A model generated the notes under the pieces. That model saw nothing but the letters and a program-made list of their open reading frames with translations. It was not told the origin of the DNA and made no database searches. Below are positions 48,703 through 63,922 of a stretch of DNA of 64,000 bases, one piece after another. Numbering within the stretch: position 1 is the stretch's first letter; each line of letters starts with the position of its first letter. Where the stretch lies: positions 434,001-498,000 of the forward strand of contig NZ_RCCK01000011.1 of NCBI RefSeq assembly GCF_003664035.1, written 5' to 3'. The position numbers and the translations under genes were made by a program. The stretch comes from Pedobacter alluvionis. Its GTDB lineage: Bacteria; Bacteroidota; Bacteroidia; Sphingobacteriales; Sphingobacteriaceae.

Positions 48703-48732
48703 CCATTCAATAATTCAATCAATCATTCAACT

Positions 48733-49179
48733 ATGAATCCACAAGAAATATTAGATAAACTGCCTTACGGTAAATCTTTTCTTTTTGTTGATGAGTTATT
48801 GCACGTTGATGAAAATGGAGCAAAAGGTACTTATACTTATGCTAAGGATCTACCATTTTACGAAGGTCATTTTAAAAACCGTCCTCTTACCCCCGCAGTA
48901 ATCCTTACCGAAACCATGGCACAGATTGGTTTGGTTTGTTTAGGCATCTACCTGTTAAAAAACATGGAAACTGATCAAAACATAGCCATTGCCATGACAT
49001 CAAATGCTATCGATTTTTTAAAACCGGTAACACCGGAAGAAAAAGTTACCGTAACGAGCGAGAAAATATATTTCAGGTTTAATAAACTGAGTTGCAAGGT
49101 AAAAATGGAAAATGCAGCAGGCGAGATGGTTTGCAAAGGAAATATTTCCGGAATGTTAATTTCGAAAGAAAATGAATAA
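48733..49179 (+). CDS. Beta-hydroxyacyl-ACP dehydratase, FabZ-like
   Basis: A 148-residue hot-dog fold protein. The catalytic His and Glu are H46 in GHFKNRP and E60 in LTETMAQ, spaced as in FabZ. It dehydrates beta-hydroxyacyl chains on a carrier protein. It lies 30 bases after the polyketide synthase and its end overlaps the ketosynthase start by eight bases, so it is part of the same operon. It is not the housekeeping FabZ, since no lipid A or fatty acid genes surround it. Confidence 0.88.
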   Translation: MNPQEILDKLPYGKSFLFVDELLHVDENGAKGTYTYAKDLPFYEGHFKNRPLTPAVILTETMAQIGLVCLGIYLLKNMETDQNIAIAMTSNAIDFLKPVTPEEKVTVTSEKIYFRFNKLSCKVKMENAAGEMVCKGNISGMLISKENE

Positions 49180-50449: not shown

Positions 50450-50702
50450 AGAAGAGATCATCGAAGCCTTAAAAACAATTGTTCAGCCTTACAGCGAAGA
50501 GTCAACAGCATTGACACAGATTGACGAAAACACCGATTTTATTAATGATTTGAAAATAAATTCGGCTAACCTGGTTGATATTGTCCTGGATATTGAAGAG
50601 AAATTTAACATCGAAATAGACAATGATTCGATGGCTAAAATGCTCAACGTAAAAGCCACAACCGAAATTATTGCCCAGAAGCTTGAAGCACATGCTGGGT
50701 AA
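50442..50702 (+). CDS. Acyl carrier protein of the polyketide operon
   Basis: An 86-residue acidic four-helix carrier protein. The frame extends upstream to 50394, but the ATG at 50442 starts the family sequence (MNKEEIIEALKTIVQPY). The attachment serine is S41 in LKINSANLVD, where most carriers have DSL; the neighbours are Asn and Ala. It overlaps the ketosynthase by eight bases and the phosphopantetheinyl transferase by eleven, so translation is coupled. It carries the growing acyl chain. Confidence 0.88.
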   Translation: MNKEEIIEALKTIVQPYSEESTALTQIDENTDFINDLKINSANLVDIVLDIEEKFNIEIDNDSMAKMLNVKATTEIIAQKLEAHAG

Positions 50703-51156
50703 CGACATCGTTGATCTGGACCTGGCTAAAATCCAAAGTAACTGGAGGCGTAAAAACTACCTCAATAAAATTTTCACAGCGGAAGAACAGCTATTGATTA
50801 CTTCAGCAGAAAAACCCGATGAAGTGGTATGGCTGTTGTGGAGCATGAAAGAATCGGCCTATAAAATTCATAACAGAAAAACAGGCATCCGGAATTTCGC
50901 CCCTAAAAGTTTAAACTGTACCGTTTATGCCAGCGCTAGTGAGATAAAAGGTAAGGTAAGCATTGATAACGATACTTACTTTACTAAAAGTGACATTCAG
51001 TTACAATATATTCATACCATTGCTGCTCCTGTTTATAGCAGACTGGAAGAAATTAAAGTAGCCATTTACGAGTTACCAAATCATCCACATGATTATAAAC
51101 GCACTAAACCAGGCTCAATTAGTCACCATGGACAATATTTGGCTTTAGTATATTAA
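50692..51156 (+). CDS. 4'-phosphopantetheinyl transferase
   Basis: A 154-residue Sfp/AcpS-superfamily enzyme that loads the 4'-phosphopantetheine arm onto the carrier protein. The start at 50692 (MLGNDIVDLDLAKIQ) is preferred to a TTG at 50671. The magnesium and CoA motifs are GNDIVDLD and WSMKESAYK (residues 50-58), both intact. It is the last gene of the operon and its product most probably activates the adjacent carrier. Confidence 0.9.
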   Translation: MLGNDIVDLDLAKIQSNWRRKNYLNKIFTAEEQLLITSAEKPDEVVWLLWSMKESAYKIHNRKTGIRNFAPKSLNCTVYASASEIKGKVSIDNDTYFTKSDIQLQYIHTIAAPVYSRLEEIKVAIYELPNHPHDYKRTKPGSISHHGQYLALVY

Positions 51157-51197: not shown

Positions 51198-52289
51198 CTA
51201 AAAGAGCTTATGAAATGATATTTGATGCTTAATTTTAAATTCGCTCAATTCATCACAACTCCCAGTTTGTTCGGGGTATTTTTCTAATCCACATTTATTA
51301 ACATCAAAATTCCATTTATCTATATCTGCACCTATTTGACGGAATACAAATATTTCATCATTTGTTGAATAGGAATTTCTGCCAATTATTTGTTTTGCAC
51401 TTATAGATCCAGAAAAGAGTTCATTATTTAGATAAGAATAATCATAAAATAAAAAATGCTTTTTATTTACATATTGTTCGTAATACCGGGATTGTTTCAA
51501 TGAATTAGTTTTTTTATCCAAAATCCATAGGTAAGAAACCAAAAGCTTTTCATTGGCAGAAAGATTTCCTTTAATATTAATAACGGTATTAATACTATCA
51601 GATTTAATACTTTCTTCTGTAATATTTAACTTTACGAGCTCATAGAAATGATTTGGCAATAACCCCAAACGCAATTTAATTTGAGGATTACTCCCATAAG
51701 TTACCTTCGGACGGCTATTTGAATTAATCGGATTACAAGCGTAATCAATATTTAATTTTACTTTTTTACTGCTACCAGCGATAATAAGACCTTCTAAATC
51801 AGGACAGTTCAGGTTTAATAAGCCTTCGTTTAATAAGATAACCTTTTCGTTATTCCGAACAACAGACTGCCTCAAAAAAACCTTCGCGTTGAAAGCATTT
51901 GGATTTAATTGCAGAAAGGATACGCTCAACAATGAATCAATTGTTTTTCGTTTGTTAAAACTTATTTGAACATCATCCAATTGGAATGTCTTTGCTGTTA
52001 AAACGATATTTTTCTGCAAGGAATCAGTTAAAACAACAGCGGAAGTTTCATAAAAAGGAAAAGTTACCTCCAATGTATCACCAAATTTGGCACTGGCTTC
52101 AAAATAACCAGATGCATCACAATTGCCAACATGTTTGCCGGAAATTATTATTGAGGCACCTATTAAAGGTTCTTTACCATCAAAAACATACCCTGTAAGG
52201 TAAAATGACTGTGCATCAACATTAACAGAAAATAGAAAAAACAAAATCGCTAAAAAAACATTTTTAGCGTTACATATATAGTTAAACAT
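51198..52289 (-). CDS. Secreted protein with carboxypeptidase-regulatory-like domain
   Basis: A 363-residue protein with a signal peptide (AKNVFLAILFFLFSVNVDAQ). Residues 30-100 form a carboxypeptidase-regulatory-like (transthyretin-like) fold: LTGYVFDGKEPLIGASIIIS, with the GNCDASGYFEASAKFGDTLEV strand pair shortly after. The remaining 260 residues are beta-rich and unassigned. It is not followed by a SusC barrel, so it is a stand-alone surface or periplasmic protein. It lies downstream of the double-glycine peptide genes, beyond a hairpin, on the same strand. Proteins of this type near peptide exporters might act in receptor or assembly roles, but that is inference. Confidence 0.75.
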   Translation of the reverse strand: MFNYICNAKNVFLAILFFLFSVNVDAQSFYLTGYVFDGKEPLIGASIIISGKHVGNCDASGYFEASAKFGDTLEVTFPFYETSAVVLTDSLQKNIVLTAKTFQLDDVQISFNKRKTIDSLLSVSFLQLNPNAFNAKVFLRQSVVRNNEKVILLNEGLLNLNCPDLEGLIIAGSSKKVKLNIDYACNPINSNSRPKVTYGSNPQIKLRLGLLPNHFYELVKLNITEESIKSDSINTVINIKGNLSANEKLLVSYLWILDKKTNSLKQSRYYEQYVNKKHFLFYDYSYLNNELFSGSISAKQIIGRNSYSTNDEIFVFRQIGADIDKWNFDVNKCGLEKYPEQTGSCDELSEFKIKHQISFHKLF

Positions 52290-52345: not shown

Positions 52346-52528
52346 TTATTTTCCATGTGCTCCATCTGAGCCTAAGGTAAGTCCAATATTATCCTGTAAC
52401 CAATGATAAGCGTCATCCAAAGCATTACCAACTGCTTCAAATGCTCTGCTAAACCAGCTTCCACCATCAATTGACTTCATTTCTGTTAAAGATAATTCTT
52501 CAACCTCATATTTTTTAAGATTTTTCAT
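52346..52528 (-). CDS. Double-glycine leader peptide precursor A
   Basis: A 60-residue precursor. Residues 1-23 are a classic double-glycine leader (KKYEVEELSLTEMKSIDGG) recognised by C39 peptidases. The 37-residue mature part starts SWFSRAFEAVGNAL and ends SDGAHGK, has no Cys and looks amphipathic-helical. The mature start SWFSRAF resembles SWIGRAW of the precursor gene 62 bases upstream, so the two are paralogs. It is probably processed and exported by the PCAT transporter encoded upstream on the same strand. Bacteriocin or signal role is not decided. Confidence 0.8.
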   Translation of the reverse strand: MKNLKKYEVEELSLTEMKSIDGGSWFSRAFEAVGNALDDAYHWLQDNIGLTLGSDGAHGK

Positions 52529-52590
52529 ATTGTATTTTTTAATTAGTTTTAGGCCTGCTATTTAGACCATCCGGTTTATATTTTAGTTAT

Positions 52591-52770
52591 TTATAGGTTT
52601 GAGGTTGGATCGGCGCCTACCACATCGGTAACAATTTCATGCACTACATCCAAAACAAACTCTTTTATCGAATTCCACGCCCTGCCAATCCAGCTGCCTC
52701 CTTCAACAAGAGATATTTCTGAGAAGCTCATCTCCTGAACATTTAAGTTCTCTAGATTTAATTTTTTCAC
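52591..52770 (-). CDS. Double-glycine leader peptide precursor B (GTG start)
   Basis: A 59-residue frame starting with GTG at 52770 and easily missed. The leader is KKLNLENLNVQEMSFSEISL followed by VEGG (Gly-Gly at 24-25). The mature 34 residues begin SWIGRAWNSIKEFVLD and end DPTSNL, with no Cys. It is paralogous to precursor A in the mature part and to precursors D and G in the leader (VQEM/VKEM). Its 5' leader contains CGAAAAGCCTTTAACGAGTA, nearly the same as the leader of precursor D. It follows the HTH gene on the same strand. Confidence 0.78.
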   Translation of the reverse strand: MKKLNLENLNVQEMSFSEISLVEGGSWIGRAWNSIKEFVLDVVHEIVTDVVGADPTSNL

Positions 52771-52845: not shown

Positions 52846-53169
52846 TTACTTTTGCTCACTATACAAAAAAAGGAGTGGATAATTTTGCTGATAAAAAAAA
52901 CCAACATTTATATCCGTTAACTCCTGAGGCTTTAAAACCGTAAAATCGGCCCTAATATTTACTTCGAATGCCTGGGTATAATAATATGTTTGTAACTGTC
53001 GCGAGTATTCTATCGGAGCGCCCATTAATTTCAACTCATCTAATACCACGTATAGTCGCGAGGTAGAAATTGATAATCTTCTTGCTAAATTTTCAGGAGC
53101 ACCTGTACGGCTTTCTTTTATCAATTTGTGAATGATCTTAATGCGATCGATGTATTCTAATAGTTTCAT
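52846..53169 (-). CDS. Winged-helix DNA-binding regulator of the peptide locus
   Basis: A 107-residue protein with an N-terminal helix-turn-helix of the HTH_11/DeoR type: DRIKIIHKLIKESRTGAPEN, then LARRLSISTSRLYVVLDELK as the recognition region. A short wing follows (MGAPIEYSRQLQTYYYTQ). No effector domain is attached; the remaining 35 residues are unassigned. It lies 15 bases after the exporter gene and just before the precursor genes, so it probably controls them. The target site is unknown. Confidence 0.82.
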   Translation of the reverse strand: MKLLEYIDRIKIIHKLIKESRTGAPENLARRLSISTSRLYVVLDELKLMGAPIEYSRQLQTYYYTQAFEVNIRADFTVLKPQELTDINVGFFYQQNYPLLFLYSEQK

Positions 53170-53184
53170 AGTACAGGCGGATGA

Positions 53185-55386
53185 TTAAATGCTATCTCTT
53201 ACAAATTCAAGTGAGGGTGTTATCAGACTTGGTAGGTCATCATCGCCAAATTGCTGTCTCCATAAATTAGCATAATACCCATTTGCCATCATCATTTCAG
53301 TATGGCTCCCCTCTTCTACAACCTTTCCTTTATCTAATACTATAATCTGATCAGCCTTTCTAATCGTAGGTAACCGATGCGCAATGATGATGATTGTTTT
53401 CTTTTGCATCCTTAGCAAATCGATTGTTCGCTGCACATACTGCTCTGAAGCTGAATCTAAAGAGGAAGTAGCTTCATCCAGAATTAAAATTTCAGGATTA
53501 CGGTATAGTGCCCTCGCTATGGCGATCCGTTGTTTTTGTCCACCTGATAAAGAGGCACCGTTTTCACCTAAATAAGTCTGAAAACCTTCTGGCAAAGCTT
53601 CAATAAAATCGATAATCCCCAATTGTGTACAAATACTAATAATCTGTTGCATATCTGGCTCATAATCGCCAATGGCAATATTTTCGATTACATTTCCTGC
53701 AAAAAGATCAATTTTTTGTGGCACAACACTTAATAAATTTCTTAAAGAGGCATTGTTCAAATACTTAAGCGCATGATTACCAATAAAAATATTGCCTGAT
53801 TGTATGGGATAAATATTTTGTAGCAAAGACATTAAGGTAGATTTACCGGATCCACTCTCCCCAACAATAGCGGTAAAACTTCCGGCCTTAATCATTAGAT
53901 TTAGATCATCAAACACATTAACGCGACTCCCATATCTAAAGGCTACATGTTCAAATCTGATATCGCCCATTAATTCTTTGGTGAGGAAAACGCCAGATGA
54001 ATTTTGTTCAATTTCCAAATCCATGATTTCAAACAAACGATCAGAGGCGATCATGGCATCTTGAATAGATTTGTTTGCTCCAATTAAGGAAGTAGCAGGA
54101 CCAGTAAAATAACCGATTAATGTATAGAAAGAGAATAATTCACCAGGGGTAATTTCGCCGTCTAAAACATAACCGGCACCCACCCAAAGTAAAACGATTG
54201 TAAGCATACGGGCAATAACCTCGGTTGATGTGCCAGAGAAAACAGAGTTTAATCCAGATTTATAAATTGTTCTGAGCAGACCTATAAAATGAGTCTCTGT
54301 TTTTTCATTTGTAAATCTTTCTAAGCCAAATCTTTTAATTGTGGCTACATTATTTAAACCCTCTACCAATTGCGATTCTAACTCGGCCGATCCCTCCATT
54401 AACCTGCGCTGCATTTTTTTGTTTAATTTATTGCTAATGAAATAAATCAATAAATACAATGGAATAACAGCCAACATCATTAAGGCCAGTTTCCAATAGT
54501 AACTGAACATTAAAATAAAAGAGAACACCACAATAAAGCCGTTTACCACCAGGTTAATGGAAACATCGTTTATAAAAGCCCTTATTTTAACCGCATCGTT
54601 AACCCTCGAAATAATTTCGCCCACCCTCATGGTATCGAAAAATTGTTGAGGCAGTTTTAAGAGATGTTTATAGTAACCCAAGATCAAGCGGGCATCTATC
54701 TGTTGCCCCGTACGGATGGTAAAAATAGTTTTAGCGGTGCCTATAAACAATTGCAGCGCTAAAATGGCTACCATCATTAAGCTCATTAAATTAAGCAGGT
54801 TCCGGTTACCTTCTACCAAAACATGATCAGTTATTTTTTGAACAAAAACAGAGGTAGATAGCCCAAGTATGGTATAAATCAAAGCACCAAAAAGTGCCTG
54901 TGTTACAATGCTTTTATGTGGTTTAATCAGGTTCCAAAAACGGCTTTTAGTATCAACCTTTTCATTGCCTTGTTTAAAGCCTTCATCAGGCAATAACAGC
55001 ACCAGTACACCTGTCCATTCGCTTGTAAATTCATCAATGGTTTTGCGGTCTATTTTTCCATCGCCGGGATCCATTACTTCGACGTATTTATCCGTTACCT
55101 TATAAATAACCACATAATGCTGCAATTGCTTATTTACTACTACATGAGCAATTGCCGGTAGTGGAATTTTAGAAAGACTATCTAAATTGCCCCTTACCCC
55201 TTTTGCTTCAAAACCCAGTTTATTTGCCGCTTCTATCAAACCTAAAACATTGGTTCCTTTTTGATCAGTGCTGGCCAATTGGCGGATCCGCGCAACAGGC
55301 ATTTTCAATTTATAAAATGCAGCTATAGATGCCAAACACGCAGCACCACAATCGGTAATATCGCGTTGTTTTATTAGTGTAGGCAT
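53185..55386 (-). CDS. Peptidase-containing ABC transporter (C39 PCAT)
   Basis: A 733-residue exporter that cuts double-glycine leaders and pumps the mature peptide out. The start at 55386 (MPTLIKQRDITDCGAACLAS) is used because the longer frame only adds translated repeat sequence. The C39 peptidase domain has C13, H90 and D106 (DCGAAC, LQHYVV, DPGDG), so it should be active. Six membrane helices follow at about 155-440. The ATPase has GESGSGKST, LSGGQKQRIAIARAL and ILILDEATSS. It works with the HlyD-family protein encoded upstream. Confidence 0.95.
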   Translation of the reverse strand: MPTLIKQRDITDCGAACLASIAAFYKLKMPVARIRQLASTDQKGTNVLGLIEAANKLGFEAKGVRGNLDSLSKIPLPAIAHVVVNKQLQHYVVIYKVTDKYVEVMDPGDGKIDRKTIDEFTSEWTGVLVLLLPDEGFKQGNEKVDTKSRFWNLIKPHKSIVTQALFGALIYTILGLSTSVFVQKITDHVLVEGNRNLLNLMSLMMVAILALQLFIGTAKTIFTIRTGQQIDARLILGYYKHLLKLPQQFFDTMRVGEIISRVNDAVKIRAFINDVSINLVVNGFIVVFSFILMFSYYWKLALMMLAVIPLYLLIYFISNKLNKKMQRRLMEGSAELESQLVEGLNNVATIKRFGLERFTNEKTETHFIGLLRTIYKSGLNSVFSGTSTEVIARMLTIVLLWVGAGYVLDGEITPGELFSFYTLIGYFTGPATSLIGANKSIQDAMIASDRLFEIMDLEIEQNSSGVFLTKELMGDIRFEHVAFRYGSRVNVFDDLNLMIKAGSFTAIVGESGSGKSTLMSLLQNIYPIQSGNIFIGNHALKYLNNASLRNLLSVVPQKIDLFAGNVIENIAIGDYEPDMQQIISICTQLGIIDFIEALPEGFQTYLGENGASLSGGQKQRIAIARALYRNPEILILDEATSSLDSASEQYVQRTIDLLRMQKKTIIIIAHRLPTIRKADQIIVLDKGKVVEEGSHTEMMMANGYYANLWRQQFGDDDLPSLITPSLEFVRDSI

Positions 55387-55450
55387 TAGAGGTGAGATGT
55401 AAGATGTAAGAATGGAGATATGAAATTTGAATTTTTTCTGCTTTAGTCTT
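55387..55450. repeat. Degenerate repeat between the fusion protein and the PCAT gene
   Basis: GAGATGTAAGATGTAAGAATGGAG and TGCTTTAGTCTTTTAGCTTTTAG-like words belong to the same low-complexity intergenic vocabulary as 14.7 and 43.9 kb. It keeps an open frame upstream of the PCAT start, so a naive start call adds 27 residues. Confidence 0.5.
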
Positions 55451-56617
55451 TTAGCTTTTAGCTCCATTCGGGTTTAACCAATCATCAACTTTATCATAAA
55501 GCAATTGATATAGGTTTCGTTTGGCAATAGTAAAGTGTGCATTAAAGGTCATACCTTTTTTTACCTGGCCTTTATAACCGTTTTTTAATTTCAAATAATC
55601 CCTATCCAATTTACACTTCACTTTAAAATAAGGACTCTGGTTAATCAATATAATATCGTCTGAAATATCGGCTACTATACCAGCAAGCAAACCCCATTGG
55701 TTATAGTTAAAAGCATCGATCTGAAACCTGACGGTTTGCCCGGTTTTAATTAAACCGATATCTGAAGGTTTAACATAGCAAATGGCAAGTAAAGCACTAT
55801 CTGGCGATATTTCGCCTATTTTCTGATTGGCAGAAATGAAAGAACCCAATTGTAAGCCCGACAGATTTTGTACCGTGCCAGAAATCCCTGCAGTTAAGTG
55901 ATATAGTTTCTCCTGCTCGGTAAGCTGGATCTTCTGACTATCCAGATCTTTGAGTTCTTTTCTATATTGATTCGATTCGGTTTGCCACTGTGTTTTATAT
56001 TTCCTGGCAACCATTTTAAAATCGGAAAGTGCCTGTTCGTAATTAAATTTATATTGCTCATACTCTGCTTCGGTAACTACCCTCTTACTGAAAAGAATCT
56101 CATACCTTTTATAAATTTTGTAGGCCTGTTCGCGCGCATTTAATGCATTTTGAATCTGCTCTGCGTATTGTTGCCAGCTTGCGGCATACAGGCCGGTCTG
56201 CAATGCAGGTTGCCCGGCATTGCTTAAATCGACCAATTTTAAGAGAAGGAGCGCATCATTTAATAAATCTTTTAATTCCCGCGAGCGGGTATTCAAAATC
56301 ACGTTTTGTGTTTCGGGTACGGTAGGATCAATATTTAAAAGGAGCTGTCCTTTTTTTATTTTTTTGTTATCGGTTAAATTAATCAAGGTAATTTTCCCGG
56401 CCACTGGCGCCAGCAGTTCTGCCCTTTCGATATTACTCTGCAAAGAACCATTCCCCTTAACGCTTACTGTGGTATAAATAAAAGGCAGGGCCGTAAAAGC
56501 GACAAGAATGAATAATATGGTGGCAGAATAAATAATTTGCGTACGTACCTTAGTATGGTGTAAAAAAATGATGGCGTTATCTTCGAAATTCGCATCTTCT
56601 GTAAAAGGCATAATCAT
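55451..56617 (-). CDS. HlyD family membrane-fusion protein for peptide export
   Basis: A 388-residue protein from the ATG at 56617 (a second ATG at 56611 is equally possible; the frame opens further upstream only with TTG). A single N-terminal membrane helix is at about 25-45 (IIYSATILFILVAFTALPFI). It is followed by a lipoyl half (RAELLAPVAGKITLINLTDN), a coiled coil at about 95-210 and the second half with the HlyD barrel (ISPDSALLAICYVKPSDIGL). Together with the PCAT it forms a type I-like export channel for the double-glycine peptides. TolC partners are encoded elsewhere, for example at 22.3 kb. Confidence 0.9.
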   Translation of the reverse strand: MIMPFTEDANFEDNAIIFLHHTKVRTQIIYSATILFILVAFTALPFIYTTVSVKGNGSLQSNIERAELLAPVAGKITLINLTDNKKIKKGQLLLNIDPTVPETQNVILNTRSRELKDLLNDALLLLKLVDLSNAGQPALQTGLYAASWQQYAEQIQNALNAREQAYKIYKRYEILFSKRVVTEAEYEQYKFNYEQALSDFKMVARKYKTQWQTESNQYRKELKDLDSQKIQLTEQEKLYHLTAGISGTVQNLSGLQLGSFISANQKIGEISPDSALLAICYVKPSDIGLIKTGQTVRFQIDAFNYNQWGLLAGIVADISDDIILINQSPYFKVKCKLDRDYLKLKNGYKGQVKKGMTFNAHFTIAKRNLYQLLYDKVDDWLNPNGAKS

Positions 56618-56662: not shown

Positions 56663-56700
56663 GAAAAAAGATACACGAAAGGGGATATTGTAGGGATGAA
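56663..56700 (-). promoter_or_regulatory. Conserved regulatory box, copy A (upstream of the fusion protein)
   Basis: In plus-strand order GAAAAAAGATACACGAAAGG then GGATATTGTAGGGATGAA. Near-identical boxes are at 57443-57480, 57867-57904 and 58676-58712. On the minus strand it contains GTGTATCTTTTTTC, in which TATCTTTT differs by one base from the -7 consensus TAnnTTTG. It lies about 50 bases before the fusion protein start, so exporter and precursors may share one regulator. Confidence 0.6.
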
Positions 56701-56727
56701 TCTGTTTTGATCTTTAGAAAATAAAAA

Positions 56728-56760
56728 AACCGATAGATGTACTAATTACATCTATCGGTT
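56728..56760 (-). terminator. Terminator of peptide cassette 2
   Basis: AACCGATAGATGT and ACATCTATCGGTT form a perfect 13-bp stem around ACTAATT. On the minus strand it is followed by a T7 run. A near copy is at 57929-57961, after cassette 1. Confidence 0.85.
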
Positions 56761-56807
56761 AACTACTTAAATACTATTTTAGAAATATTGCAATATTTAA
56801 CAATTAA

Positions 56808-56948
56808 TTACTTTTTTATACTAATGTTAAAGTCTTTAGCAAAACTCCGCCCAAAAGATTCAGTAATTTCGCCCAACACAAAAACAAGCAAAACAATAGC
56901 AATTACAGTAGATAGTGCTTTTGCATTTTTTTTAATAATATTATTCAT
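56808..56948 (-). CDS. Leaderless membrane peptide of cassette 2 (putative immunity peptide)
   Basis: A 46-residue product with no double-glycine leader. It starts MNNIIKKNAKALSTVIAIVL, has one membrane helix at about 12-27, and ends GRSFAKDFNISIKK. Its segment GEITESFGRSFAKDF aligns with GEVAESAGRAYRKEF, the C-terminus of precursor C encoded 41 bases upstream. The same relation holds between its counterpart in cassette 1 and precursor F. It also shares the MNxxIxK start and overall size with that counterpart. Position, size and similarity suggest a dedicated immunity peptide, but a leaderless active peptide is an alternative. Confidence 0.65.
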   Translation of the reverse strand: MNNIIKKNAKALSTVIAIVLLVFVLGEITESFGRSFAKDFNISIKK

Positions 56949-56989
56949 ATTGCCTAAAATTAAAACGTACTTTAAAAATTCTATTTTTT

Positions 56990-57157
56990 TTACAAAAATT
57001 CTTTCCTATAAGCTCTTCCTGCTGATTCTGCCACTTCTCCGGCTAGATAAACAAGTCCACCAATTGCTGCAAAAACCTGCCAAATTCCTCCAACTATATT
57101 TTTCTTTTCCACCAAAGTTAATTCTTTAACTTCTAATTTTTTAAAATCTACTTTCAT
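56990..57157 (-). CDS. Double-glycine peptide precursor C (cassette 2)
   Basis: A 55-residue precursor. The leader is KKLEVKELTLVEKKNIVGG (Gly-Gly at 23-24). The mature 31 residues, starting IWQVFAAIGGLVYLAGEVAE and ending RKEFL, are hydrophobic with small-residue spacing (GG..LAG...AG) suited to helix packing in membranes. There is no Cys. It is the second gene of a cassette D-C-membrane peptide, 17 bases after gene D. A pore-forming two-peptide bacteriocin subunit is the simplest idea; not demonstrated. Confidence 0.75.
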   Translation of the reverse strand: MKVDFKKLEVKELTLVEKKNIVGGIWQVFAAIGGLVYLAGEVAESAGRAYRKEFL

Positions 57158-57174
57158 TTTATATCTATTTTTTT

Positions 57175-57339
57175 TTATAAAGCATTACATTGACAGCCCT
57201 TTTCAAATTTCTCGATTAGGTAGGCAGAACCGGGTGCCATAAAATATAGCCAAATTGGAACATTACCCCCACTTATTTTATCCATCTCTTTAGTATCCAT
57301 CTCCTGAACACCAAAATTGCTTAATTCTAATTTTTTCAT
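57175..57339 (-). CDS. Double-glycine peptide precursor D (cassette 2)
   Basis: A 54-residue precursor with the leader KKLELSNFGVQEMDTKEMDK then ISGG (Gly-Gly at 24-25). The mature 29 residues start NVPIWLYFMAPGSAYLI and end KGCQCNAL. It is the only cassette peptide with cysteines (CQC). The leader closely resembles that of precursor G in cassette 1 (VKEMDAKEM), which marks D and G as equivalents. It is the first gene after the copied promoter block. Probably exported by the PCAT. Confidence 0.75.
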   Translation of the reverse strand: MKKLELSNFGVQEMDTKEMDKISGGNVPIWLYFMAPGSAYLIEKFEKGCQCNAL

Positions 57340-57641
57340 TTCGTTTAATTTAAATTTTTGTTTCTTACTCTTTAAAGGCTTTTCAGGTTCCGCCTATGTT
57401 GGCCTAACATGAAACAAGTATCTAATTTTAAAATTCGACTCCGAAAAAAGATACACTAAAAGGGTTATTCTAGTGATGAAAAGGCTGGATTAAGAGAGTT
57501 GGTAATGAATTTCACCATGAAAACTAAAGCCTACCAGCAATGAATGATAGGGATTTACACACTTCATGAGCTAAATGCCGGTAATTTATTTCATACACGC
57601 ATTAAACTCAATTGTAATTAATGGAAACATTCTAACCTTTA
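57340..57641 (-). promoter_or_regulatory. Promoter and 5' leader block of cassette 2, with box copy B
   Basis: On the minus strand the block runs from box B (57480-57443; plus-strand order GAAAAAAGATACACTAAAAG, GGTTATTCTAGTGATGAA) through AATTTTAAAATTAGATACTT and GTTTCATG to the leader GGCGGAACCTGAAAAGCCTT just before precursor D. The same order is found before cassette 1 and, less well kept, before the 35-residue gene. The left part 57481-57641 holds nothing recognisable. Confidence 0.6.
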
Positions 57642-57749
57642 TTAGTGGCTAACATAATATGCCGCCTTACCAATAAAATAACCACCTAAATAAGTTATTC
57701 CTATTAGGGCAAAAGCTAGAAAGATAAATAGCAAAAGGTTATTTTTCAT
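57642..57749 (-). CDS. Orphan 35-residue membrane peptide
   Basis: A short frame, MKNNLLLFIFLAFALIGITY and then LGGYFIGKAAYYVSH, with one membrane helix and no leader. It has its own upstream block with box C and a degenerate version of the shared 5' leader, but no double-glycine precursors beside it. Size and position recall the leaderless peptides of cassettes 1 and 2, so it may be what is left of a third cassette. As the shortest frame here, its reality rests on the conserved upstream block. Confidence 0.5.
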   Translation of the reverse strand: MKNNLLLFIFLAFALIGITYLGGYFIGKAAYYVSH

Positions 57750-57779
57750 AGGATTTTGAGATGAGTTGTTTTAATTAAA

Positions 57780-57904
57780 TTTTGATTTCATGGCTTCCTA
57801 CTTGTTTCAGATTCTGTCTACCTGAGCATAACATAAAACAAGTATCTAATTTTAGAATTTATAGAGCAAAAAAGATACACGAAATGGTGTATTGTAGGGA
57901 TGAA
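57780..57904 (-). promoter_or_regulatory. Promoter block of the 35-residue gene, with box copy C
   Basis: Box C at 57904-57867 (plus-strand order CAAAAAAGATACACGAAATG, GTGTATTGTAGGGATGAA) is followed on the minus strand by AATTCTAAAATTAGATACTT and GTTTTATG, then a diverged leader. The box is closest to copy A. Confidence 0.55.
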
Positions 57905-57928
57905 AAGGCTTTTGATCTTTAAAATAAA

Positions 57929-57961
57929 AACCGATAGACGTATTGATAACATCTATCGGTT
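57929..57961 (-). terminator. Terminator of peptide cassette 1
   Basis: AACCGATAGACGT and ACATCTATCGGTT pair over 13 positions with one G-T pair, followed on the minus strand by TTTTTATTTT. Together with the flanking bases it is a copy of the cassette 2 terminator at 56728-56760. Confidence 0.85.
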
Positions 57962-57993
57962 AACTATTTAAACGCTATTTTAAGGAAGAGTGA

Positions 57994-58134
57994 TTAGAGG
58001 GATAGTGCAGCAACTGCATAATCTTTCCCATGTTCAAAACCAAACCTAAACAGCTCAAATGATAAATAAGTAAGAAGTACAAGAAATAACACAAACAGGT
58101 AAATCCTGTCTTCTTTTGTAATTGAATGATTCAT
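57994..58134 (-). CDS. Leaderless membrane peptide of cassette 1 (putative immunity peptide)
   Basis: A 46-residue product, MNHSITKEDRIYLFVLFLVL..., with a single membrane helix and no double-glycine leader. Its segment ELFRFGFEHGKDYAVAAL resembles QLFKFGWDAGVAAAK, the C-terminus of precursor F encoded 52 bases upstream. It corresponds in length, start (MNxxIxK) and position to the leaderless peptide of cassette 2. The resemblance of each to its own neighbour suggests specific recognition, as expected for immunity. No experimental family is recognised. Confidence 0.65.
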   Translation of the reverse strand: MNHSITKEDRIYLFVLFLVLLTYLSFELFRFGFEHGKDYAVAALSL

Positions 58135-58186
58135 AATATTAAATTTATGCTAGTTACCTATCTTACCAATTGTTGCATACAAAAAC

Positions 58187-58378
58187 TTACTTAGCCGCAG
58201 CTACACCTGCATCCCAACCAAATTTAAACAGCTGGTAGCTTAATGCTGTAGCACCAACAACTAAACCTAATAATCCAAGTATGCCTCCATTTGTTTCAAT
58301 AATTTCTTGCTCTGATAACTCTTTAAGATTATCAATTTTTATTGAATTCAATTTACTAATTTTATTTAAAGATTTCAT
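58187..58378 (-). CDS. Double-glycine peptide precursor F (cassette 1)
   Basis: A 63-residue precursor with a longer leader ending LKELSEQEIIETNGG (Gly-Gly at 31-32). The mature 31 residues, ILGLLGLVVGATALSYQLFK and then FGWDAGVAAAK, are strongly hydrophobic with Gly-rich helix-packing spacing and no Cys. It is the second precursor of cassette 1, 29 bases after gene G. It is equivalent to precursor C of cassette 2 by position and mature length. Confidence 0.78.
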   Translation of the reverse strand: MKSLNKISKLNSIKIDNLKELSEQEIIETNGGILGLLGLVVGATALSYQLFKFGWDAGVAAAK

Positions 58379-58407
58379 AATATGTCAATTTTATTTGTTT
58401 AATTTTT

Positions 58408-58572
58408 TTAACCATGACTTTTAATAGCCTGCAGTGCTTTTTCATAAATGAAGCCCGAAATCCACCCAGTAATTGGAAGAGTAAGCAATCCTAGCATCCC
58501 TCCATTTTTTTCAACCATCTCTTTAGCATCCATCTCCTTAACATCAAATCTTTCTAATTCTAAGTTTTTCAT
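58408..58572 (-). CDS. Double-glycine peptide precursor G (cassette 1)
   Basis: A 54-residue precursor with the leader KNLELERFDVKEMDAKEMVE then KNGG (Gly-Gly at 24-25). The mature 29 residues start MLGLLTLPITGWISGFIYEK and end IKSHG, hydrophobic at first with GWISG spacing and basic at the end. It is the first gene after the copied promoter block and the equivalent of precursor D. No Cys. Its leader is nearly interchangeable with that of D, so both should be substrates of the same C39 peptidase. Confidence 0.76.
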   Translation of the reverse strand: MKNLELERFDVKEMDAKEMVEKNGGMLGLLTLPITGWISGFIYEKALQAIKSHG

Positions 58573-58712
58573 TTCGTTTAATTTAAATTTTTGATTCTTA
58601 CTCTTTTCAGGCTTTTCAGGTTCCGTCTATGTTGGCCTAGCATGAAACAAGTATCTAATTTTAAAATTCGACTCAGAAAAAAGATACACTAAAAGCCCTT
58701 TTATAAGGACAA
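58573..58712 (-). promoter_or_regulatory. Promoter and 5' leader block of cassette 1, with box copy D
   Basis: Box D (58712-58676; plus-strand GAAAAAAGATACACTAAAAG, then a diverged half) leads on the minus strand into AATTTTAAAATTAGATACTT, GTTTCATGCTAGGCCAACAT and AGACGGAACCTGAAAAGCCT, then the start of precursor G. It is nearly the same as the cassette 2 block, so the cassettes were duplicated with their control region. The S41 pseudogene starts in the opposite direction from the same gap. Confidence 0.62.
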
Positions 58713-58851: not shown

Positions 58852-60264
58852 ATGAAAAAAATTATCTTCTACTTATTGCTCTTATTCCCGTTTTATAATT
58901 TACAAGCCCAGAACTGTAATTGCGGTGATAATTTTAATTATCTTACTAATAGAATAACAAAAAATTATGTTGGCTATGCCGATAAAGTAACGCCTGCAAA
59001 TAGCCAACAGTTTAAAAAATTCACAGATAGTCTGCAACAGGTAGCCAATCAGGCCAACCAATACAAGTGTTTAAGTTTATGCCGGGAATGGTTAGATTTT
59101 TTCAAAGATAAACACATATCATTTGGGATGGATTTTGATAAATTGGATCCAGATTCTGTAAGAAGTTTTTTTGCTAATGAAGAAAAAAGCACTTGGACAG
59201 AGAGCACATTTAAATCCTATCTTGAACAAAATAAAGAAGCCCTGGATAGCATTGAAGGAATTTGGAGCGTTGGCATATATGAAGTTGGGATTGTTAAAGA
59301 CAAAAAGTCCGATCAGTTTATAGGTTTTATACTAAAGGCAGACTCTGTAAGATGGATGCCTCAACAGATCAAATTTAGATTGGCAAAAAAGGATAATCAA
59401 TATTAAACCATTTTCTTTGCTGGAGGGGATCATTCAGAGCAACACCCAATACTTTTGAAAACTAGAGATGTTTTAGATTTCGGAATATTCGGAAAGTGGA
59501 TGAGGAGCCCCAAACTACTCCCTGCTACACTTAAAAAAGAAATTGACCTTTCGCCAAAATTTAAGGTTTTGGACCATGAAACCGCATTATTTGAAATGCC
59601 ATCTTTTGGCAAACTAGAATATGTAGCCCCAACAGCTGCATTAATTAAAAAGAATGAAAACATATTAAAAAACACCAAACATTTAATTATCGATTTAAGA
59701 AATAATGGCGGTGGATCTGTTCTGGTATACGAAAAGTTAATGCCCTACCTTTATACCAACCCTATACTAAAAGAAGGCGGATATGTTCTGGCAACACCAG
59801 AAAACATTAAAGATAGCGGTTACGCTAAAGAATATCCCGAAACCTCTGACAGCATAAGAAACGTTTTTAAAAAATACCTGACCGAGTTAAAAGCTCACCA
59901 GGGAGAAATGTATAAGCTATATCCAATAGATACCATCAAGTTTAAAACTATTTCAAAAAACCCTGAACGTGTTTCATTTCTTGTTAATCGGGGTACGGGA
60001 AGCGCTGCTGAAATGTTTTTACTGGAAGCTAAACAAAGTAAAAAAGTGAAACTCTATGGTGAACATTCATCTGGAGCTGTAGACTACACTGAATTTGTTA
60101 AAGTAGAAATGCCATGTAAATTCTACACGCTTTATTACCCTACCTGTAAATCTTTAAGATTACCAGATTATCCCTTAGATAATATTGGTATCAAGCCTAA
60201 TGTAACAATACCTGCCGATGTTACCGATTGGATTGATTTTGTAAAGAAGTATAAAACTAAATAA
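58852..60264 (+). pseudogene. S41 family peptidase, interrupted by one in-frame stop
   Basis: The frame from 58852 encodes a signal peptide (KKIIFYLLLLFPFYNLQAQ), the NCNCGDNFNYL start, and the family sequence up to KKDNQY, then TAA at 59404-59406 (codon 185). The same frame then continues open to 60264 with the expected C-terminal part: HLIIDLRNNGGGSV, RGTGSAAEMFLLEAKQSKKV. The intact paralog at 60649-62070 has AAA (Lys) where this copy has TAA, so one substitution broke the gene. Read-through or internal start at 59455 (TTG) could still give fragments. It was a peptidase of the C-terminal processing/tricorn-like S41 type. Confidence 0.85.
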
Positions 60265-60396: not shown

Positions 60397-60573
60397 ATGA
60401 AAAACAAAAAATTAGAAAAAAAGACTTTATTTGTTTTTAAGAAGAACAACTTGACCAATTTGACGAAAGAGCAAATGACGAGAATTAATGGAGGTGGTCC
60501 TACTGGCGGCAATGATCCTTCAGCAGGAGTAACTTGCCCAGAAAGAACAGTAAACCAAACAGTTAGCGAATAG
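60397..60573 (+). CDS. Gly-Gly-motif peptide precursor H
   Basis: A 58-residue precursor with a lysine-rich start (MKNKKLEKKTLFVFKKNNLT) and NLTKEQMTRINGGG as a leader end, the style of Bacteroidetes natural-product precursors. The 24-25 residue remainder, PTGGNDPSAGVTCPERTVNQ and then TVSE, has one Cys and several Thr/Ser. It differs from the cassette peptides in being hydrophilic. It lies between the two S41 genes on the plus strand and ahead of a LytS/LytTR pair, so a signalling peptide is plausible. Lanthipeptide-like modification is not supported, as no LanB/LanC or LanM gene is visible. Confidence 0.72.
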   Translation: MKNKKLEKKTLFVFKKNNLTNLTKEQMTRINGGGPTGGNDPSAGVTCPERTVNQTVSE

Positions 60574-60648: not shown

Positions 60649-62070
60649 ATGAAATATATAGTTTGTTTTCTTTGCTTATTTTTATTTACTCTTAATTTAA
60701 GTGCCCAAAATTGTAACTGTGATGATAATTTTCGCTTCTTAGCAGAAAAAATCAAAAAAAATTATATTGGTTATCCTGATAAGGTAAATTCTTCAAATCA
60801 GTTACAATTTCAAAAATTCACTGATAGTTTACAACACATTGCTTCTGTTTCTAATCCTTATAGGTGTTTAAGCTTAATTAGAGAATGGTTAGATTTTTTC
60901 AAAGATAAACACATATCATTTGGGATGGAATTTGATAAATTGGATCCAGCTTCTGTAAGAAGTTTTTTTGCTAATGAAGAAAAAACAACTTGGACAGAAA
61001 AGCGTTTTAAATCTTACTTGCAAGAAAATAATAAAACTCTAGATAGTATAGAAGGAATTTGGAATTATGGGATGTATGAAATTGGAGTTGTTAAAGATAA
61101 CACCAAAAAAAATATTGAATTTATTGGTTTTGTGATAAAAGCAGATAGCGTACGATGGATACCACAACAAATAAAATTTAAAATCGCGAAGACTGACAAT
61201 CAGTATAAAACTATTTACTACAGCGCGGGTGATCATTCGGTTAATTACCCAGCTTTAATTAAACAGAATGACGTACTAGATTTTGGTTTTTTAGGAAAAT
61301 GGGTAAGAGGAGAAAGAAAAGCTAAAACTATCCCCCCTGCTGCATACATTGAACCTGATTTAATGGCCAGTTTAAAAAAATTAGATGACCAAACAATTCT
61401 CCTTTCACTTCCTTCTTTCAATTCAAAGTATAAAACAAGAATAGATAGTTTAATCGAGAGAAATAAAGATAATTTAGCTAATACTAAACATCTAATTATT
61501 GATGTTCGTAACAATTCTGGAGGAACAACGGGTTGTTTTGAAAAAATAATACCTTATTTATATACTAACCCCATACATATTGATGGTGGTATCGTATTAG
61601 CTACAGATGACAATATTCGTGATTGTTATGAAAAAGATTATCCATATGCATCAGCAGCTTCAAAAAAAGAATTAAAAAAGAGTGCAAAAAAATTGAGAGC
61701 TAATTTAAATAAATTTTACCCACTTTATAAATCCAGTACACTGAAACTATCGAAAACATTAAAAAATCCCGAACGTGTTTCAATTCTAATTAACGGGAAT
61801 ACAGCAAGCAGTGGAGAATTATTTATTTTAAGAGCAGAACAAAGTAAAAAAGTAACTTTATTTGGACAAAATACTGCTGGAAGCGTTGATTATGGCGAAA
61901 TGGTAATCACTCATCCTCCTTGTAGCTTTTTCACTCTTGTTTATCCAGTAGCAAAATCACTACACGCCATAAAACGACCATTAGATAATATAGGAATAAC
62001 TCCAAATGTAATTATTCCTAATCAAGAAGTTGATTGGGTCGACTATGTAAAAAACTATAAAAGTAACTAA
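60649..62070 (+). CDS. S41 family peptidase, intact paralog
   Basis: A 473-residue secreted protein with the signal peptide MKYIVCFLCLFLFTLNLSAQ and a Cys-rich start (NCNCDDNFRFL). The S41 core has HLIIDVRNNSGGTTG near residue 282, the nucleophile region NGNTASSGELFILRA (Ser at about 387) and the lysine region EQSKKVTLFGQNTAG. It probably cuts peptides or protein C-termini in the periplasm or outside. Its stop overlaps the sensor kinase start by one base (TAATG), so peptidase, kinase and regulator are one operon. It may process precursor H, encoded just upstream; that is inference. Confidence 0.88.
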   Translation: MKYIVCFLCLFLFTLNLSAQNCNCDDNFRFLAEKIKKNYIGYPDKVNSSNQLQFQKFTDSLQHIASVSNPYRCLSLIREWLDFFKDKHISFGMEFDKLDPASVRSFFANEEKTTWTEKRFKSYLQENNKTLDSIEGIWNYGMYEIGVVKDNTKKNIEFIGFVIKADSVRWIPQQIKFKIAKTDNQYKTIYYSAGDHSVNYPALIKQNDVLDFGFLGKWVRGERKAKTIPPAAYIEPDLMASLKKLDDQTILLSLPSFNSKYKTRIDSLIERNKDNLANTKHLIIDVRNNSGGTTGCFEKIIPYLYTNPIHIDGGIVLATDDNIRDCYEKDYPYASAASKKELKKSAKKLRANLNKFYPLYKSSTLKLSKTLKNPERVSILINGNTASSGELFILRAEQSKKVTLFGQNTAGSVDYGEMVITHPPCSFFTLVYPVAKSLHAIKRPLDNIGITPNVIIPNQEVDWVDYVKNYKSN

Positions 62071-63200
62071 TGATAAAGCATAACTATAGAGTAGTTACAT
62101 ATCACTTAATATTTTGGGTGATTTATATATTACTAAATAATATTTTGACGTATGCTCAAGATCCTAAAAGCTATATTTTCAATATTGGAGACATTTTTAT
62201 CTTTCAAATTCCGAATATTTGTACTGTATATTTATGCATATTAGCATGTAGAAAATATACCAACCCGCTAAAACCATTTCCCTTGTTCTTAGGAATCACT
62301 ATTGTTTTCGCGTTCTCTTACCTCCTATGGTATACTATGACTTATCATATTAGGCCCTATGTTAATGCGAATGGATCAACTCCACCCCCATTCAATTTTA
62401 TAAATTACGGGGCAGCTGTACTTTTGGTTTTTATTCGGTATTCAATTATAGGTATCGGCTACCATTTTGCCTCTGAAGGAATTAAACGTGAACGAAAACT
62501 GCGCCTCATTGAAAAAGAAAAACATGAAGCAGAATATGCCTTTCTCCGCGCACAGATTAATCCTCACTTTTTAAACAACACGCTGAATTTCTTTTTCGCA
62601 AAATCGTTACCCTTATCTCAGGAGCTTGCCGATGGCATTATGACCCTCAGTAAAATTATGCGCTATTCCCTGGAAATGGATAAAGATGACCGCATGACCT
62701 TAATAGACGAGGAAATTGAGCATATTAAAAATGTAATTAAAATTAATCAGCTTCGTTTCAATAACAAATTACAGATCGATTTTAATGTGAATGGTAAGAC
62801 TGATAATGTAAGACTGATTCCATTAATTCTAATCACCATTGTAGAGAATATCTTAAAACATGGTGATTGCACAGATAAGTTGCACCCTGTTAAAATTACT
62901 TTAAACATTAACGAAATCGATCATAACATCTGTCTAACCACCTGGAATAAAAAGAAAAATGGCCCTAAAGAACTGTCAAGTGGTATAGGTATGGAAAACA
63001 TAAAGAAAAGACTCGCAAATCATTACAAAAAAGGGGTTGCATTAAATATTAATGAAACCGAGATTGATTACAGTCTTGAATTAACTTTGCCTTACAATAA
63101 GGTTACTGATCACCAGGAAAAACCAAGCTCATTTGATAATTTAGGCTTTTTGGAACATTTCAAGATACCACAAATTAAACCTCAACCATATACCTCATGA
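62070..63200 (+). CDS. LytS-type sensor histidine kinase
   Basis: A 376-residue membrane kinase. About four membrane helices occupy residues 10-135 (YHLIFWVIYILLNNIL, PLFLGITIVFAFSYLLW, AAVLLVFIRYSIIGIG). The His_kinase box AQINPHFLNNTLNF has the phospho-acceptor H166, and the ATPase has IVENILKHG and GIGMENIKKRL. It has no periplasmic sensor domain of note, like many peptide-sensing kinases. It overlaps the regulator by four bases. Confidence 0.93.
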   Translation: MIKHNYRVVTYHLIFWVIYILLNNILTYAQDPKSYIFNIGDIFIFQIPNICTVYLCILACRKYTNPLKPFPLFLGITIVFAFSYLLWYTMTYHIRPYVNANGSTPPPFNFINYGAAVLLVFIRYSIIGIGYHFASEGIKRERKLRLIEKEKHEAEYAFLRAQINPHFLNNTLNFFFAKSLPLSQELADGIMTLSKIMRYSLEMDKDDRMTLIDEEIEHIKNVIKINQLRFNNKLQIDFNVNGKTDNVRLIPLILITIVENILKHGDCTDKLHPVKITLNINEIDHNICLTTWNKKKNGPKELSSGIGMENIKKRLANHYKKGVALNINETEIDYSLELTLPYNKVTDHQEKPSSFDNLGFLEHFKIPQIKPQPYTS

Positions 63201-63922
63201 TTAAGTGCATTATTGTTGATGACGAAGACCATGCCATTGAAGTAATACAACATTACCTGAAATCAGTTGCTGCCATACAGATCACCGCAACATTTATCAA
63301 TCCGATTGATGCATTAAGCTTTTTGAGTAGCAATCCGGTAGATCTCATTTTTTTAGATATTCATATGCCAGGAATATCAGGAATTGATTTTATCCAAACG
63401 ATGAATAACAAAGACGCACAGGTGATACTTACTACTGCCTATAAAGAGTTTGCTACCGCTGGTTTTGATCTTGATGTGGTTGATTATTTAGTTAAACCTA
63501 TCCCGCTGCCGCGTTTTTTACAAGCAATAAACAAGGCTCAAAAGATAATTCACTCTAAAAAAGCCAATATACCGGCTAAGCAGCAGGATGATGATTATTT
63601 TATGGTTAAAACAGAGGCTAAAGGTAAAATGCTTAAAATTAATATCGCTGAAATTGATTTTGTTGAAGGAATGAAAAATTATATCGCTTTTCACCATAAT
63701 GGGATGAGAACGCTTGCGCTCCTAACCATGAAGGATGTAGAGGAAAGATTACCCAAAACACAATTTATCCGGGTGCAGAAATCGTTTATAGTGGCACTTA
63801 ATAAAATCACTTCAATAGATGGGAACAGGATTATTTTAAAAGGTATTTCGGCTGAAATATTAATTGGCGAAACCTATCGGAGAGATTTTTTGGATATGAT
63901 GAAGCAAAAGCTGCTTTTATAA
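63197..63922 (+). CDS. LytTR family response regulator
   Basis: A 241-residue regulator with a receiver domain (VDDEDHAIEVIQHYL, phospho-acceptor D54 in FLDIHMPG, Lys in DYLVKPI) and a LytTR DNA-binding domain from about 140 (INIAEIDFVEGMKNYIAFHH, LPKTQFIRVQKSFIVALNKI). LytTR proteins commonly control bacteriocin and peptide-pheromone genes. Its likely targets include the boxes upstream of the peptide cassettes, but no binding data exist. The remaining 78 bases of the window show nothing. Confidence 0.94.
   Translation: MIKCIIVDDEDHAIEVIQHYLKSVAAIQITATFINPIDALSFLSSNPVDLIFLDIHMPGISGIDFIQTMNNKDAQVILTTAYKEFATAGFDLDVVDYLVKPIPLPRFLQAINKAQKIIHSKKANIPAKQQDDDYFMVKTEAKGKMLKINIAEIDFVEGMKNYIAFHHNGMRTLALLTMKDVEERLPKTQFIRVQKSFIVALNKITSIDGNRIILKGISAEILIGETYRRDFLDMMKQKLLL

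Follow-up and report, generated by a model that had tools for sequence, protein, structure and literature searches.

A leaderless membrane peptide resembling half of a putative toxin in exchangeable bacteriocin-like cassettes of Pedobacter alluvionis

Two cassettes and their membrane peptides

A 64,000-nucleotide stretch of the Pedobacter alluvionis genome (contig NZ_RCCK01000011.1, positions 434,001 to 498,000), hereafter the window, carries on its minus strand two cassettes in which two genes for double-glycine-leader precursors are followed by a gene for a leaderless peptide with a single transmembrane (TM) segment. Cassette 1 consists of the precursors G (58408-58572, 54 residues, leader end KNGG) and F (58187-58378, 63 residues) and the membrane peptide E (57994-58134, 46 residues), and cassette 2 of the precursors D (57175-57339, 54 residues, C-terminal GCQCNAL) and C (56990-57157, 55 residues) and the membrane peptide B (56808-56948, 46 residues). 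As judged by alignment, the membrane peptide copies the C-terminal half of one putative toxin of its own cassette, F in the case of E and C in the case of B, with G and D as the presumptive partner peptides; not all cassettes found in other genomes obey this rule. This likeness between membrane peptide and toxin is the new element of the system, and no description of a toxin-copying membrane peptide was found in the literature searched, whose coverage left out most subscription journals. The best explanation of the whole, which we consider probable, is that these are exchanged two-peptide bacteriocin cassettes whose membrane peptide would serve as a decoy immunity factor. Taken more broadly, as bacteriocin plus immunity, the reading has a high probability. 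The six open reading frames (ORFs) had been pointed out in an earlier sequence-only reading of this DNA and are all present on the minus strand where it placed them; that reading was unaware both of the copied toxin tail and of the unrelated contents of the cassettes.

Resemblance of the membrane peptides to putative toxins

In the window, E matches the core of F (TALSYQLFKFGWDAG / TYLSFELFRFGFEHG) with a score of 47, and B matches the core of C over 24 columns with a score of 60; for each of the two, its own cassette gives the best match among 10 cassettes. Used as queries against the genome, B retrieves C and C retrieves B, weakly in both directions (expectation values 0.077 and 0.082). When 10 non-redundant cassettes were compared, the score of the membrane peptide against the toxins of its own cassette averaged 43.1, versus 23.9 (standard deviation 3.0) for shuffled pairings, and none of 200,000 permutations reached the observed value. 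The own cassette ranked first in six of the ten, third in L037, L072 and L084 and fourth in L034. This set was chosen by a fixed rule, with a precursor of L071 ending in AG admitted through an added pattern, and it includes a 37-residue ORF of L072 and a 30-residue ORF of L084, both doubtful as genes.

Tests on further loci were needed because these ten cassettes had also given rise to the idea. Across 58 loci (38 from the genus and 20 from outside it), a per-peptide test was made on TM ORFs lying at most 1 kb from a double-glycine peptide, and eight of 39 scored above every unrelated core; seven of the eight are distinct and one (L161) lies outside the genus. Among the 26 TM ORFs marked as non-redundant, five reached p<0.01. 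A scan of 78 loci from named genomes added seven new TM ORFs, one of which passes, in the Flavobacteriaceae metagenome-assembled genome of L250. Finally, other families of the class provided fresh data in 40 C39 exporter loci, for which a somewhat stricter leader score was applied; of the eight TM ORFs found there close to a double-glycine peptide, three, belonging to two loci (L261 and L282), scored above all 118-120 unrelated cores.

The likeness is concentrated towards the end of the peptides. Over ten aligned pairs, 71/158 positions are identical in the C-terminal half, where 500 mismatched sets average 26.1 and never exceed 44; in the N-terminal half 38/155 are identical, compared with 25.7. 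These figures describe the pattern and are no test of it because the composition of the set was changed, L037, L072 and L084 being left out and L184 (aligned by eye), L161 and L250 (from the scans) being added. The membrane peptide combines a tail that copies half of a toxin with an N-terminal TM segment that is more hydrophobic.

One could argue that this likeness is a by-product of hydrophobic composition, and in favour of such a view the shuffle tests of TM segments are lenient and E and B are also alike, with a score of 47. That E/B likeness is left without interpretation because shuffling destroys TM segments and makes the null unfair. Composition as the explanation is largely refuted and retains hardly any credibility, since permuting real cassettes keeps composition intact and yet none of the permutations came up to the observed score, and since the matches in the permutation set are ungapped or contain a single gap, are strongest in the C-terminal half and recur in loci outside those that formed the idea.

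A third membrane peptide, of 35 residues (57642-57749, minus strand), lies between the two cassettes in a unit that has no toxin of its own, and it is a candidate orphan immunity peptide. The local toxins score at most 30 against it (p 0.37) and a toxin core from elsewhere reaches 48; by eye, its tail YLGGYFIGKAAYYVSH resembles the L034 core AAGYYIGKAWYHSTH. Weak matches obtained in the search with E (L124, L125, L126, L130 and L131) were dismissed as chance, no comparable TM peptide being recognisable in them. L127, L128, L129 and L132 from the same search, and L094-L100 from the search with B, were left aside in this inspection.

A shared frame with unrelated contents

The two cassettes had been described as duplicated, a description that holds for the flanking frame (promoter, 5' untranslated region, leader start and terminator) and fails for the contents. 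A 218-nucleotide repeat of 87% identity spans the promoter, the 5' untranslated region and the first leader codons of both cassettes, and their terminators are 85% identical over 62 nucleotides, a likeness of the flanks well above what chance would give. Along a global alignment of the cassettes, each of the first five 40-column blocks holds 27-39 matches, the 14 intervening blocks hold 10-23, and the blocks at 760-840 rise again to 32 and 31, with 5 matches in the final 16 columns. The mature cores are unrelated (G versus D, p 0.27; F versus C, p 0.86). Two near-identical frames hold unrelated peptides, and this is no simple duplication. The matching sizes and leader types reported earlier do not extend to F and C, which differ in both length and leader.

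Every unit of the locus lies upstream of the exporter genes and has one promoter box. Read along the minus strand, transcription would run through a box, G, F, E and a terminator; a box and the 35-residue peptide; a box, D, C, B and a terminator; and a box, hlyD and the C39 exporter gene. The boxes are exact copies of the 13-mer GTGTATCTTTTTT, at 58677-58689 for cassette 1 (where the shared promoter and 5' region extends to about 58573), 57868-57880 for the middle unit, 57444-57456 for cassette 2 and 56664-56676, just 5' of hlyD, for the exporter operon. The picture of two cassettes was accordingly incomplete, having overlooked the middle unit, which has a box and the 35-residue peptide and lacks a precursor, as well as the fourth box before hlyD. 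Both terminators that it proposed, each a hairpin followed by a U-run, were borne out by folding energy: they lie at 57921-57962 for cassette 1 (-18.0 kcal/mol, z -6.6) and 56720-56761 for cassette 2 (-19.4 kcal/mol, z -8.8), both on the minus strand, and none of 200 shuffles of either was as good.

The box occurs in five exact copies in the 6.04-Mb genome, four of them inside these 2 kb and the fifth within a gene that by eye is transketolase-like. In the window the cassette promoters continue from GTGTATCTTTTTT to AAAATTAGATACTTG, and GTATCT and AGATAC form an inverted repeat; ATATCCAATACTTG often stands in place of AAAATTAGATACTTG in other genomes, and the version before hlyD diverges after the box. 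Among 16 loci mapped, an exact box lies 65-67 nucleotides before the start of the hlyD query in 13, a box with two mismatches is found in L078 and L079, and none was seen before hlyD in L080. A His_kinase and LytTR response regulator pair identified by domain matches in the same island (62070-63922, plus strand) is a possible regulator of these boxes.

Exchange and persistence of the cassettes

A survey of 145 genomes of the genus yielded 24 with an HlyD match at an expectation value of 1e-140, and in 16, the present one included, HlyD is at least 71% identical. Upstream of hlyD, 15 of these 16 have precursor or membrane-peptide genes, in sets that vary by genome and share single cassettes; in L080 no precursor or membrane-peptide gene was seen there. 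Cassettes are thus exchanged behind a common promoter box. Among the best 80 of 364 relatives, close exporters occur in Pedobacter borealis, P. ginsenosidimutans, P. petrophilus and P. chinensis, and the HlyD of Chryseobacterium polytrichastri (L184) is 65% identical, above many Pedobacter loci. The trio of L073 recurs next to HlyD in L184, with 19/27, 27/34 and 15/40 identities, the TM peptide having been found by eye inside a longer ORF. Comparison of these sequences makes a horizontal transfer between families probable.

The D-C-B order itself recurs in L250, where 13/19 positions of C and 7/13 of D (with GCxCN) are identical, no unrelated core scoring as high; B and the L250 membrane peptide share just 5/20 positions, a value reached by one of 134 cores. 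Whether the trio stays together, which had been proposed as a check on the cassettes, has consequently received a divided answer: related trios exist in L184 and L250, a D/C pair stands without B in genomes G009 and G148, and lone membrane peptides are common. Related exporters of Mucilaginibacter type (L157, L158 and L159) are accompanied by six single double-glycine precursors in a row, with no matching membrane peptide seen, and to judge from these genes the loci carry a different cargo for the same exporter family.

Evidence for an immunity role

That the membrane peptide is an immunity factor, as the sequence-only reading had implied, is supported by what is retained when precursors decay. 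In the sister genome G136 (HlyD 97% identical), early frameshifts or stop codons disrupt G, D and C, and F is intact; E and B are both intact, with one and two amino-acid changes, and the 35-residue peptide is present in two copies. At the site between the 4'-phosphopantetheinyl transferase (PPTase) gene and pruA, 17 genomes without an intact exporter there include 11 empty sites, five with immunity-type genes and one with other contents. The empty sites include L137, whose 34-residue hydrophobic ORF was taken as chance. In the five, immunity-type genes are kept without a convincing precursor: TM peptides alone in L133 and L134, the latter also with a GTG-start relative of B; TM peptides with other small ORFs in L147 and L149, the former also with a LytTR gene; and in L142 a gene of family PF02517 with fragments of exporter and regulator. 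The unbiased count of such relics is 3 in 15 usable sites because L133 and L134 had been found through the search with B; 20 stretches were taken for this survey, and L143, L150, L153, L154 and L155 were dropped, pruA not being found beside the PPTase gene. At the same site L144 holds a double-glycine peptide, a CarboxypepD_reg-type protein and a LytTR fragment. Immunity genes, then, can outlive their toxins. Purifying selection is also indicated, with a pooled ratio of nonsynonymous to synonymous polymorphism (pN/pS) of 0.42-0.47 in four TM-peptide families.

The third slot of the cassette is not always filled by a small peptide. Among ten larger ORFs from islands and relics, eight match PF02517 (Abi/CPBP), at 152-296 residues in the set scanned; the other two are L035 (123 residues), with a weak LptD_N match, and L147 (128 residues), without a match. 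Five of the PF02517 ORFs follow double-glycine precursors (L072, L038, L079, L078 and L081), with an extra small ORF in between in L072 and L081, two (L037) belong to units without a precursor and one (L142) to a relic. E, B and the 35-residue peptide gave no PF02517 match. Tandem TM peptides reminiscent of immunity arrays are seen without an adjacent toxin in L078 and L134, and with toxins in the locus in L072 and L282.

The membrane peptide could instead be read as a leaderless bacteriocin, a third toxin or a subunit of the pore, given that it is small, hydrophobic, toxin-like and encoded in the same unit as the precursors. This is a very improbable reading: the peptide has no Gly-Gly leader for the exporter, it persists where precursors are broken or gone, and PF02517 proteins fill its slot in sibling cassettes.

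A probable class IIb-like bacteriocin system

The G/F and D/C pairs most likely are two-peptide (class IIb-like) bacteriocins, to go by their genes and surroundings. Each full cassette has two adjacent small genes with double-glycine leaders, and adjoining the cassettes are genes on the minus strand for a HlyD-type accessory adaptor (55451-56611; HlyD_3, 2.3e-14) and a C39-peptidase ATP-binding cassette exporter, or PCAT (53185-55467; Peptidase_C39, 3.2e-36; ABC_membrane, 8e-51 for 53185-55380), which would be expected to remove double-glycine leaders. GxxxG-like motifs were read by inspection from the cores, as GWISG in G, GLVVG and GWDAG in F, AAIGG and AESAG in C and the weak APGSA alone in D. 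The earlier idea of a class IIb bacteriocin gains from this context, that is, from the C39 exporter, HlyD, the His_kinase/LytTR pair and the PF02517 proteins that follow precursors in sibling cassettes. No match over the cut-off was obtained when ten small peptides were scanned with family models, Pfam included, and the name 'class IIb-like' is used because no curated family model is reached.

In a full cassette, a two-peptide double-glycine bacteriocin would be encoded together with its own immunity. The genes, leaders and order are observed; the adjacent C39 exporter would cut the precursors behind Gly-Gly and carry the products out. By analogy with class IIb, the mature pair may insert into the inner membrane of related bacteria, pack through Gly/Ala helix faces and cause leakage. 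The leaderless single-pass peptide encoded by the third gene would stay in the producer, where its toxin-like tail, on the outer face of the membrane, might bind the partner peptide or a shared docking site and form a dead complex. Such a decoy is the most likely means of protection because the tail copies the C-terminal half of a toxin and is joined to a more hydrophobic TM segment; from the sequences we would give this mechanism about an even chance.

Double-glycine peptides can also act as pheromones, and with a LytTR two-component system in the island the peptides might be signals for the His_kinase/LytTR pair, with the membrane peptide modulating the sensing. We regard this as quite improbable, although slightly less so than a third toxin: there are many unrelated peptide pairs per exporter type, PF02517 partners and cassette exchange behind one promoter, and a better pheromone candidate exists in a separate double-glycine peptide at 60397-60573. 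This 58-residue peptide, of another type and on the plus strand, lies between two S41-like genes and upstream of the His_kinase/LytTR pair, and could be its inducing peptide.

Comparison with known systems and points against the decoy reading

Carnobacteriocin XY, lactococcin G and the plantaricins are class IIb systems that share with the cassettes two adjacent double-glycine precursors (with cores of 29-31 residues here), GxxxG-like motifs, an adjoining membrane immunity gene (putative here) or Abi/CPBP protein, a C39 exporter and a nearby kinase and regulator. Unlike them, the present cassettes belong to Gram-negative Bacteroidota, are exchanged behind one box, copy the C-terminal half of a toxin and are not reached by the family models. 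In PMC6957408, immunity to two-peptide bacteriocins is called a mystery as regards its mechanism, Abi-family proteins are known immunity proteins of such bacteriocins, and CbnZ, the immunity peptide of carnobacteriocin XY, is described as a 42-residue, single-TM peptide in N-in/C-out orientation that raises resistance 250-fold. CbnZ resembles E and B in its one TM segment, its lack of a leader and the position of its gene after two toxin genes, and according to that text the orientation has been demonstrated for CbnZ. CbnZ proves that a two-peptide bacteriocin can have so small a peptide as its immunity factor, and it does not prove mimicry. ABP-118 was sought as a second known case of small immunity, and the gap after its two peptides holds no plus-strand ORF of at least 28 residues.

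The bacteriocin could be correctly identified and the membrane peptide could still act in the manner of CbnZ or of further small immunity proteins, through an unrelated mechanism; it would then owe its resemblance to the toxin to no more than ancestry (a duplicated toxin gene without its former leader) or binding to a shared receptor. This alternative we hold to be unlikely, though well ahead of a pheromone role. It draws on CbnZ, a one-TM peptide accepted as an immunity factor that shows no significant resemblance to CbnX or CbnY, and on LagC, for which contact with both toxin and receptor has been proposed in the same text (PMC6957408). What speaks for a decoy instead is that the likeness persists across several unrelated families of toxin and is concentrated in the C-terminal half, and that the purifying selection on the TM peptides points to a function.

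Several results weigh against the decoy reading and its bacteriocin framework. In the per-peptide test 31 of the 39 TM ORFs, many of them orphans or doubtful ORFs, did not score above every unrelated core, and these include TM ORFs in apparent cassettes (L034, p 0.12; L037, 0.073; L163, 0.11; L084, 0.12 and 0.20; L072, 0.32; L078, 0.58). A single locus supplies six of the eight TM ORFs in the fresh-data check. A replacement of small by bulky residues in the N-terminal half, considered as a signal, proved to be largely composition (40 versus 29.8 expected, with 9 of 500 mismatched sets as high). CbnZ fails as a toxin mimic, scoring 28 against CbnX and 17 against CbnY, with 10 and 68 of 83 unrelated cores as good; E and B differ from it here, in that they score above unrelated toxins against F and C and CbnZ does not against CbnX and CbnY. 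Each of E, B and their kin has one hydrophobic segment, whose flanks in ten peptides carry charges of +1 to +4 on the N-terminal side (amino terminus counted) and -1 to +2 on the C-terminal side, a weak indication of the N-in/C-out orientation. The peptides would also have to cross the outer membrane of the target. The precursors stay under the curated cut-offs, with F at 15.6 and D at 16.3 bits against 21.5 for TIGR03949, and D at 15.5 bits against 15.7 for TIGR01847. Finally, in L035 and L073 (genomes G009 and G148) the D/C pair, with 22/28 and 19/27 identities in its L073 homologs, leads straight into the terminator and the hlyD box, and B, used as a query, matched nothing in G009 or G148 at an expectation value of 0.1; either these peptides need no B, or their protection lies elsewhere.

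Other systems share single features with the cassettes. The PF02517 proteins occupy the same third slot after double-glycine precursors in sibling cassettes and are putative proteases of 152-296 residues, unlike E and B, which have 46 and do not match this family. Bacteroidetocins, as presented in PMC6671954, are likewise double-glycine bacteriocins of Bacteroidetes with a C39 exporter; they comprise a class IIa-like peptide, a five-TM protein and a thiol oxidoreductase, and the authors of that work see no immunity protein. The Caulobacter Cdz system (PMC5380434) is a bacteriocin of two proteins from a Gram-negative bacterium, with export of type I and an immunity protein that is small and located in the inner membrane; it differs in its glycine-zipper proteins of 84 and 86 residues, its contact dependence and the three TM segments predicted for CdzI. 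In the fission-yeast wtf poison/antidote system (PMC6283613) the protector reportedly has sequence in common with the poison; wtf is a eukaryotic intracellular driver, and the parallel is one of principle alone.

If the decoy reading is true, a peptide of about 46 residues holding half of the toxin's sequence would be a simple answer to two-peptide immunity for one group, and the specificity of immunity as well as cognate pairs of toxin and immunity peptide would be readable from sequence alone. Non-producers would then accumulate orphan copies in immunity arrays, and an arms race would be driven by cassettes that can be swapped behind a single promoter box. That Bacteroidota share a general and so far undescribed self-protection, a leaderless decoy peptide copying the docking half of one toxin subunit, is a tentative proposal whose chance falls a little short of even. 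The loci suggest that environmental Bacteroidota are a reservoir of antibacterial peptide genes of 30-60 residues, and they show that immunity-type genes can be present in bacteria from which the toxin has been lost or was always absent.

Further genes of the island

On the plus strand, the first of the two S41-peptidase-like genes (58852-60264) is split into two ORFs of 184 and 269 residues, its relatives in L071 and L033 being single ORFs of about 470 residues, and it looks like a pseudogene; the second copy (60649-62070) is in one piece. Downstream of the exporter and of a small winged-helix-like gene (52846-53169) there is another double-glycine pair on the minus strand (52346-52770, with genes at 52591-52770 and 52346-52528), followed by a CarboxypepD_reg-type protein of 363 residues (51198-52289); this pair recurs in L033, L071 and L074. 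One border of the island is formed by a plus-strand gene run (45809-51156) that by eye includes a ketosynthase, an acyl carrier protein, a 4'-phosphopantetheinyl transferase, an oxidoreductase and a methyltransferase, and that, again by eye, resembles flexirubin or aryl polyene biosynthesis.

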